Source of the DNA: Nitrospirota bacterium
GTDB taxonomy: Bacteria; Nitrospirota; Nitrospiria; Nitrospirales; Nitrospiraceae
DNA length: 47,764 nt
Direction of reading: 5' to 3'
Assembly: GCA_030682135.1 (NCBI GenBank)
Contig: JAUXQT010000112.1
Location: forward strand, 1 to 47,764
This document shows positions 18,057-44,662 of the stretch, piece after piece (positions within the stretch are counted from its first letter, which is position 1; the number at the start of each line of letters is the position of its first letter). Both the position numbers and the translations under genes were made by a program. Below the pieces are notes generated by a model. That model saw nothing but the letters and a program-made list of their open reading frames with translations, was not told the origin of the DNA and did not search any database.

Positions 18057-18347
18057 GTCTGCTTTATGGTGAGGGTTGAGGCTTTGAGTTCCCCTCCTGG
18101 CGAGTTGACGCCATCCGCGGAACGACGTAGCCTGTCGCTGACCCTTGATCCAGAGGTCGACTAATACACTGAACGATGAAGCTAGGGGATCTTTGGCTTT
18201 TCTCCGAACTCCCATTCCTTGTCCTCCTGGAAAATGAGCCATGTGGTTTTAGGTATTCCGTGAGAGAGCCACTAGAGAGAATTGAATCATCTCTATATTT
18301 CGGCGAGAGTGGTTGTAGTGGCGCTTATTGGTAGCGTCATAAGGTGC

Positions 18348-42499: not shown

Positions 42500-42551
42500 G
42501 AACGGATTGTAGGGAAGGCGGAGAGGTGAAGTCAAACAAGCGGAGCGGGGA

Positions 42552-42637
42552 GTGGCCAGGTGCCCTTCTTGCTCGCGGAACGCGCACGATCAGAATGTGC
42601 TCGTCCGACGCGCGCAGTGAAGGGCAACCTTGGCCAC
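42552..42637. repeat. Palindromic repeat A, copy 3
   Basis: GTGGCCAGGTGCCCTTC and GAAGGGCAACCTTGGCCAC are near-perfect outer arms; inner arms AACGCGCACGATC...GAATGTGCTCG. Upstream of dnaE. Confidence 0.75.
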
Positions 42638-42701
42638 GCCCCTAAAGAGAGGGGTAAGAATCGGAAGATTTGAGTGGAAGAACAGGGGAGGGCGAGGTCA
42701 T

Positions 42702-42840
42702 TGGGGGTGGTCTCTGTGCTCGCGCAACGCGCGGCCACCAGCGTCGTTCGTCTCTCGTGAAGTGTGAATCGTCCGATTCCGAAACGAGATACGCTTCACG
42801 AGGCCCGTTTCACGAGACTCAGGAGACGCGCGCAGTGGGA
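42702..42840. repeat. Palindromic repeat B, copy 6, interrupted
   Basis: GGTGGTCTCTGTGCTCGCGC plus AACGCGCGGCC form the left arm; the right arm (GACGCGCGCAGTGGGAG) is about 60 bases farther on than in other copies, with CGTTCGTCTCTCGTGAAG inserted. Confidence 0.6.
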
Positions 42841-43167: not shown

Positions 43168-43377
43168 CTTAACTAGATGTCCAGGGAATTGGGCGAATGT
43201 TATCGTCGCGCGGTAGGCCATGCTGTCTCCACTCGATTAAAAGGCTTCTCGGCGTGAGATATTCTCAAGTGATTGATTACATTGAAATAAATTTTCTTCT
43301 TCCTTGTGAATGTTCATGATATGATCTGCGGGCTGCTTTCTTGGACGCCATGGCTCTCCCCTGGTGTAAAGAAAGTC
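43168..43377. other. Region with a possible promoter
   Basis: TATGAT at 43319-43324 could be a -10 box with TTCTTC 17 bases before it, upstream of the terminator at 43378. No coding frame of note. Confidence 0.25.
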
Positions 43378-43414
43378 GGGGAGGTGATGTGGCCATCACC
43401 TCCCCATTTTTTTT
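43378..43414 (+). terminator. Strong Rho-independent terminator without a clear gene
   Basis: GGGGAGGTGAT GTGGCC ATCACCTCCCC followed by A and eight T's. A perfect 11-pair stem. It points along the plus strand, but no protein gene is visible upstream except the IS3 remnant, so it may end a small RNA of 60-90 bases. Confidence 0.85.
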
Positions 43415-43771: not shown

Positions 43772-43801
43772 TGAGGAGGCGACGTGGCCGCCGCCCCCTC
43801 A
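43772..43801 (-). terminator. Hairpin after the lysine-rich peptide gene
   Basis: TGAGGAGGCG...CCGCCCCCTCA folds with a loop holding GTGGCC, the same loop as the terminator at 43378. It follows the peptide stop (43807) by five bases on the minus strand. No T-run. Confidence 0.5.
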
Positions 43802-43806
43802 TAAAA

Positions 43807-43869
43807 CTACTTCTTCTTCTTTGCCGCCTTCTTGACGGGCTTCTTTGCTGCTGCTTTCTTCGTCGCCAT
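43807..43869 (-). CDS. 20-residue Lys/Ala-rich peptide, histone H1-like
   Basis: ATG at 43869 (minus strand) to TAG at 43807-43809: MATKKAAAKKPVKKAAKKKK, 20 residues with ten lysines. GGGTGGAG lies six bases upstream as a ribosome-binding site, and the promoter-like boxes and a hairpin bracket the gene. Repeated KKAA/KKP units are like histone H1 C-terminal tails and like bacterial nucleoid proteins of the Hc1 kind, so it may bind DNA or RNA, but this is inference. No partner gene is present. It is too short for usual gene callers and could be missed in other genomes. Confidence 0.7.
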   Translation of the reverse strand: MATKKAAAKKPVKKAAKKKK

Positions 43870-43917
43870 GTGATCTCCACCCCCCTTCGATGTAAAAGTG
43901 TTGAACAGTGTGTGAGA

Positions 43918-43946
43918 GGTATATCAGAGTTTGATCACGGAGTAAA
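43918..43946 (-). promoter_or_regulatory. Candidate promoter of the lysine-rich peptide gene
   Basis: On the minus strand TTTACT (-35), a 17-base spacer and TATACC (-10). Each hexamer matches four of six sigma-70 consensus bases. Transcription would begin about 40-45 bases upstream of the ATG. Confidence 0.4.
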
Positions 43947-44458: not shown

Positions 44459-44662
44459 TAGCAGGCTGTGGAAAAACTCGTTGTATGCGAAACAACGGCC
44501 AACGTACTCCGAGTGGCGCCGCGGCCTGAACAACCACAGGATGCTCAAAAAGGCCGTTCAGCAAGGCCGCAGCGAACGAAGAGGCGAGGCGTACGGGTTG
44601 GTACGTTGAGCCTCTTCGTGAAGTGAGAACGCCGCTGGCGGACTTTTTCAGCATCCTGCTAG
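44459..44662 (+). repeat. Palindromic element P, full copy
   Basis: 204 bp. Starts TAGCAGGCTGTGGAAAAACTC and ends GACTTTTTCAGCATCCTGCTA, so the two ends are inverted repeats. The part from about 44536 to the end equals the short copies. Its last bases form the stop codon of msrB on the minus strand (44659-44661). Confidence 0.88.

Follow-up and report, generated by a model that had tools for sequence, protein, structure and literature searches.

A lysine-rich micropeptide gene of Nitrospira and a predicted convergent antisense small RNA complementary to its translation start

A stretch of 47,764 nucleotides from a Nitrospirota bacterium (contig JAUXQT010000112.1; here called the window) encodes a 20-residue lysine-rich peptide and, on the opposite strand, a predicted small RNA complementary to its translation start. 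We refer to the peptide gene, which was the subject of a preliminary description of the window, as class A, and to a second Lys/Ala/Pro peptide locus, located after a HARE-HTH gene, as class B. That class A is a real gene is strongly supported, and the existence of the small RNA gene is strongly supported by conservation and structure. The function that we favor, and consider somewhat probable, is that class A encodes a free cationic micropeptide resembling the tail of histone H1, whose synthesis would be repressed by the antisense small RNA.

The class A open reading frame (ORF) runs on the minus strand of the window from an ATG at 43869 to a TAG at 43809-43807 and comprises 20 codons, 10 of them for Lys, at exactly the position given in the preliminary description. 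Its product was said there to be pure Lys/Ala/Pro; it is rich in these residues, but Met, Thr, and Val each occur once. The clear ribosome-binding site and the 3′ hairpin of the same description were both found (Table 1). The hairpin begins 5 bases past the stop codon, with 99.7% of cells paired across 22 sequences, and the mRNA region as a whole folds with z = -2.5, more stable than most shuffles. The promoter-like boxes fared less evenly: a strict promoter scan returned no match, but TTTACT and TATACC are kept in relatives at a spacing of 17 nt.

Table 1. Features of the class A gene and of the predicted small RNA gene, with positions in the window
Feature	Sequence	Positions	Strand	Evidence
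Class A peptide gene	MATKKAAAKKPVKKAAKKKK	43807..43869	-	Conserved in relatives; pN/pS 0.25
Class A ribosome-binding site	GGGGGGTGG	43877..43885	-	7 bases 5′ of ATG; kept in relatives
Class A -35-like box	TTTACT	43941..43946	-	17-nt spacing kept in relatives; under strict-scan threshold
Class A -10-like box	TATACC	43918..43923	-	Kept in relatives
Class A mRNA 3′ hairpin	TGAGGGGGCGGCGGCCACGTCGCCTCCTCA	43772..43801	-	13 pairs; without strong U-run
Small RNA extended -10 box	TGATATGAT	43317..43325	+	TGNTANGAT kept in most of 33 homologues
Predicted antisense small RNA, ~84 nt		43330..43413	+	Start estimated, end at U-run; fold z -5.28; 33 homologues
Small RNA seed	GCTGCTTTCTT	43332..43342	+	Complementary to codons 4-7 of class A mRNA
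Small RNA C-rich stretch, SL1 apex	CTCTCCCC	43354..43361	+	Complementary to ribosome-binding region
Small RNA terminator hairpin and U-run	GGGGAGGTGATGTGGCCATCACCTCCCC plus U-run	43378..43413	+	U-run ends at 43413

The preliminary description judged a real gene likely and suggested looking for the same peptide in related genomes, a lack of conservation being what would count against it. A protein search bore this judgment out: of 32 genomes from the same genus (Nitrospira), 23 contain the peptide, mostly in single copy, the source genome has one copy, and conservation is clear. Among the relatives whose loci were read, the TTTACT-17-TATACC arrangement, a G-rich ribosome-binding site, the ATG, the frame, the stop, and the hairpin all recur. 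ORF lengths range from 15 to 28 amino acids and differ by whole codons, and pN/pS is 0.25 for ungapped pairs of equal length, a conservative figure because misaligned repeats would push it up. Together, the whole-codon differences and the low pN/pS argue that class A is very probably translated and that selection acts on its peptide. An exact-pattern scan of ~85,000 species genomes gave 52 matches, 51 of them titled Nitrospira, Nitrospiraceae, or Nitrospirae, and the single exception carried the title uncultured Nitrosospira.

A short Lys-rich ORF followed by a hairpin might also be read as a regulatory leader, in which the Lys codons would sense charged tRNA-Lys and decide whether transcription terminates at the hairpin before reaching a downstream gene. 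However, the class A hairpin is followed by no strong U-run, neither ORF length nor the Lys block is constant, and no conserved downstream gene that a terminator could control was found, as the genes neighboring class A are not kept beyond subclades (20 relatives plus the window). Class A stands alone, which is a strong argument against a leader peptide of a fixed downstream gene, and the lack of a conserved downstream gene and of a strong U-run largely rules out attenuation.

About 360 nt downstream of class A in the window, on the opposite strand and convergent with it, lies the small RNA gene, which the preliminary description missed. A covariance model of the small RNA matches positions 43312-43413 (E = 7e-24), and in most genomes the covariance model of class A also flags, in reverse sense, a hairpin at a distance of 250 to 600 nt downstream. 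The 33 homologues fold as a stem bearing the seed (SL1) followed by the terminator, with deviations in SL1 at loci L054 and L087. Across these homologues, both partners have changed in two SL1 pairs, and conservation reaches 92% in the seven-base arm that carries the seed, compared to 75% in its partner arm; RNAalifold applied to a MAFFT alignment did not recover SL1. No Rfam covariance model matched the small RNA. Its own model found matches in 68 of 235 Nitrospirales genomes and, in a sample drawn evenly across the phylum, in two genera only. We infer that the small RNA is transcribed; a published transcriptome study (PMC6606698) had depleted its samples of small RNAs.

Two small ORFs in this region were considered and rejected. 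A downstream micropeptide, MASKKAARRSYHEHSQGRRKFISM (start 43351, minus strand), looks conserved in close relatives, but stops interrupt many of its homologues; its ORF corresponds in essence to the 5′ part and promoter of the small RNA gene, read as the reverse complement. The ORF MLVDRNHRPNRQEAKKMGR (start 43455, minus strand) merely overlaps the small RNA terminator and lacks conservation. As a separate observation, the small RNA seed is duplicated (GCUGCUUUCGCUGCUUUCUU) at loci L087 (G161:C5) and L222 (G102:C32). At L087, the codons of the peptide targeted by the seed are duplicated too, a possible concerted change that is anecdotal.

Complementarity to the class A start region, taking in the ribosome-binding site and the first codons, lies in the 5′ half of the small RNA (GCUGCUUUCUUGGACGCCAUGGCUCUCCCC). 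Across 36 native pairs, the mean duplex energy was -47.9 kcal/mol, compared to -32.4 kcal/mol once the small RNA had been dinucleotide-shuffled, and for 21 of the 36 none of 200 shuffles reached as low an energy. Pairing between the small RNA and class B mRNA gave z values of -4.6 to -5.8 in the three testable genomes, and the target 18-mer occurs as an exact match in the source genome only in class A and two class B copies. The target is also constrained at the nucleotide level in a way that matches the seed: codon K5 is AAA in 42 of 44 cases versus 39 of 349 elsewhere, and codon A6 is GCA in 43 of 44 versus 35 of 159 elsewhere, although Fisher values for these counts overstate the case because the sequences are related. 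Loci picked by exact DNA pattern were excluded from these statistics, since the pattern itself fixes those codons. The codons under the seed are nearly fixed, with synonyms free elsewhere; the preliminary description overlooked this constraint on codons 4 to 6.

Fixation of the seed codons and conservation of the seed arm suggest selection for pairing. Native small RNA/mRNA pairs were no better than swapped pairs, giving no signal of coevolution. The complementarity may have arisen by inverted duplication: the locus of the small RNA looks like the start of the peptide gene copied in inverse orientation, in which case the two were probably complementary from the beginning. Strong pairing and nucleotide constraint on codons 4 to 6 would also suit a class A mRNA that served as a noncoding decoy for the small RNA, with the ORF incidental, but the whole-codon length changes, the pN/pS of 0.25, and the kept start, ribosome-binding site, and stop make this very unlikely.

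At many loci (e.g., L001, L057, L215), the hairpins of both peptide classes and the terminator of the small RNA tend to share a GGCC-containing loop, which is found at class B also in families lacking the small RNA. A kissing contact between GGCCAC of the mRNA hairpin and GUGGCC of the small RNA terminator is exact in the window; it was rejected, as the loops of several species have changed independently of each other, and the occurrence of the loop at class B where the small RNA is missing weakens it further.

Both class A and the small RNA are present in 65 genomes, the peptide alone in one, and the small RNA alone in three, counted with a class A list compiled by hand from covariance-model matches and loci read. 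In the sole peptide-only genome, an N-gap comes after class A. Among the three genomes with the small RNA only, a contig ends within class A in one and short of class A in another, and the third has a weak, apparently degenerate match. Because the two genes are adjacent, their co-occurrence reflects travel as a unit and not an independent association. The pair has no fixed neighbors, moves between unrelated neighborhoods, is missing from some congeners, and occasionally occurs in two copies; genomes lacking both generally retain class B. Elsewhere in the window, at ~18100-18240, ~42540-42760, and ~44470-44660, translations of intergenic stretches have repeated motifs in common (e.g., FTARVGRAHSDRARSASKKGTW) and resemble dispersed genome repeats.

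The distribution of the class A/small RNA pair would be in keeping with a type I toxin-antitoxin system, the main rival to small RNA control of an H1-tail-like peptide, in which the cationic peptide would be toxic if overproduced, the small RNA would act as the antitoxin, and the cassette would maintain itself. The layout fits: as in type I systems, for which convergent orientation is known (PMC6563280), a very short ORF lies near a convergent RNA that is predicted, from complementarity and position, to cover the translation start of the peptide mRNA. The chemistry of the peptide is at odds with it: most type I toxins, though not all, are hydrophobic with a transmembrane segment (PMC6563280), whereas MATKKAAAKKPVKKAAKKKK is a polycation without any hydrophobic stretch. 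Moreover, the two genes do not overlap, a near-identical class B peptide is retained in genomes without the small RNA, and an exact-pattern scan of viral contigs gave no matches, a result that also led us to set phage carriage aside. We regard a toxin-antitoxin function as unlikely.

Class B came to light as a further locus found in most genomes by the covariance model of the class A unit, and it extends class A into a Nitrospirales-wide paralogous Lys/Ala/Pro family, of which the preliminary description saw the class A gene but missed the rest. In the source genome, outside the window (L057; G000:C36:466-572, minus strand), class B is a TTG-start peptide of 12 residues, MATKKAAKKKKK, preceded by a gene for a protein of ~170 amino acids that combines a coiled coil with a HARE-HTH domain (PF05066; E = 2.7e-12). 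The stop of the HARE-HTH gene lies 41 to 56 nt upstream of class B in a subset of the loci read. HARE-HTH is paired with a short Lys-rich ORF in additional genera of this family as well as in three more families of the Nitrospirales, and the class B peptide reaches 35 residues or more in other genera and families (e.g., MAPAKKAAKKKAPAKKKAPAKKKAPAKKKAPAKKR). Since class B is more widespread than class A, class A would most simply be its derived paralogue. A second class B-like copy near a contig end (L058; G000:C3:52913-53019, minus strand) has an altered ribosome-binding site and last codon (KKKKT) and may be a real duplicate, contamination, or an assembly artifact.

Since HARE-HTH and the globular domain of H1 are both winged helices, the HARE-HTH/class B pair resembles, by analogy, a linker histone made as two separate polypeptides. 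The RNA polymerase delta protein of Bacillus is likewise a HARE-HTH (PF05066) protein, and the NCBIfam model for delta scored the HARE-HTH protein found here far under the cutoff. Class B directly follows a gene for a coiled-coil and HARE-HTH protein in several families, whereas class A does not. In the literature searched, we found no report of a Lys-rich peptide partner of HARE-HTH proteins.

H1-like Lys/Ala/Pro tails are also known from DNA-binding proteins such as mycobacterial HupB and Bordetella BpH1. AlgP of Pseudomonas aeruginosa binds DNA, comprises an H1-tail-like KPAA domain, localizes to polyphosphate granules, and is needed for granule spacing (PMC9239181). The Lys/Ala/Pro-rich, low-complexity composition of such proteins is shared by class A and class B, and the link to a putative DNA-binding protein is made through class B, next to HARE-HTH, and not through class A. 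H1-like tails are domains of larger proteins, whereas the Nitrospirales peptides are free polypeptides of 12 to 40 residues, and class A, unlike H1-like tail proteins, has its own putative promoter and small RNA. The nucleoid or RNA-binding role proposed in the preliminary description is consistent with composition, and the position of the class B paralogue behind a HARE-HTH gene throughout the order lends it indirect support. It is composition that suggests nucleic acid binding by the class A peptide, which is itself not encoded next to a HARE-HTH gene. The similarity of class A in composition to AlgP raises the alternative that the polycation partner is polyphosphate or rRNA instead of DNA, with the small RNA still setting the dose. 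However, the gene that accompanies the class B paralogue specifies a putative DNA-binding protein (HARE-HTH), and we consider this alternative distinctly improbable.

Under small RNA control of an H1-tail-like peptide, the reading that we favor, the small RNA would be transcribed from its own promoter-like box, and its SL1 seed and C-rich loop would cover the class A ribosome-binding site and first codons and probably also the class B start region. We infer that it would thereby repress synthesis and limit the dose of the peptide or peptides. Like H1-like tails, the peptide would use its charge to bind a polyanion such as DNA or RNA, and it may act as an accessory nucleoid factor. More broadly, we tentatively offer as a possibility that Nitrospirales have a split linker-histone-like system, with separate HARE-HTH and H1-like tail, to which Nitrospira would add an extra, relocatable tail gene and a dedicated antisense RNA with the capacity to silence the two tail genes. 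Such an arrangement might be an RNA-controlled chromatin peptide or a type I toxin-antitoxin system with a polycation peptide.

Searches of Rfam, NCBIfam, and PDB gave no match for the class A peptide/small RNA system, and the literature searched, mostly without subscription journals, held no description of the combination of peptide and small RNA; a small-RNA-controlled micropeptide with the character of an H1-like tail is a combination that we could not find described. Class A is a taxon-restricted micropeptide below routine annotation size with strong evolutionary evidence of translation, and the small RNA, absent from Rfam, comes with a likely target identified. The hosts are nitrifiers, which play a central part in the nitrogen cycle and are difficult to manipulate. 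If the link to HARE-HTH is borne out, short synthetic peptides would allow direct tests of a split histone-H1-like system.
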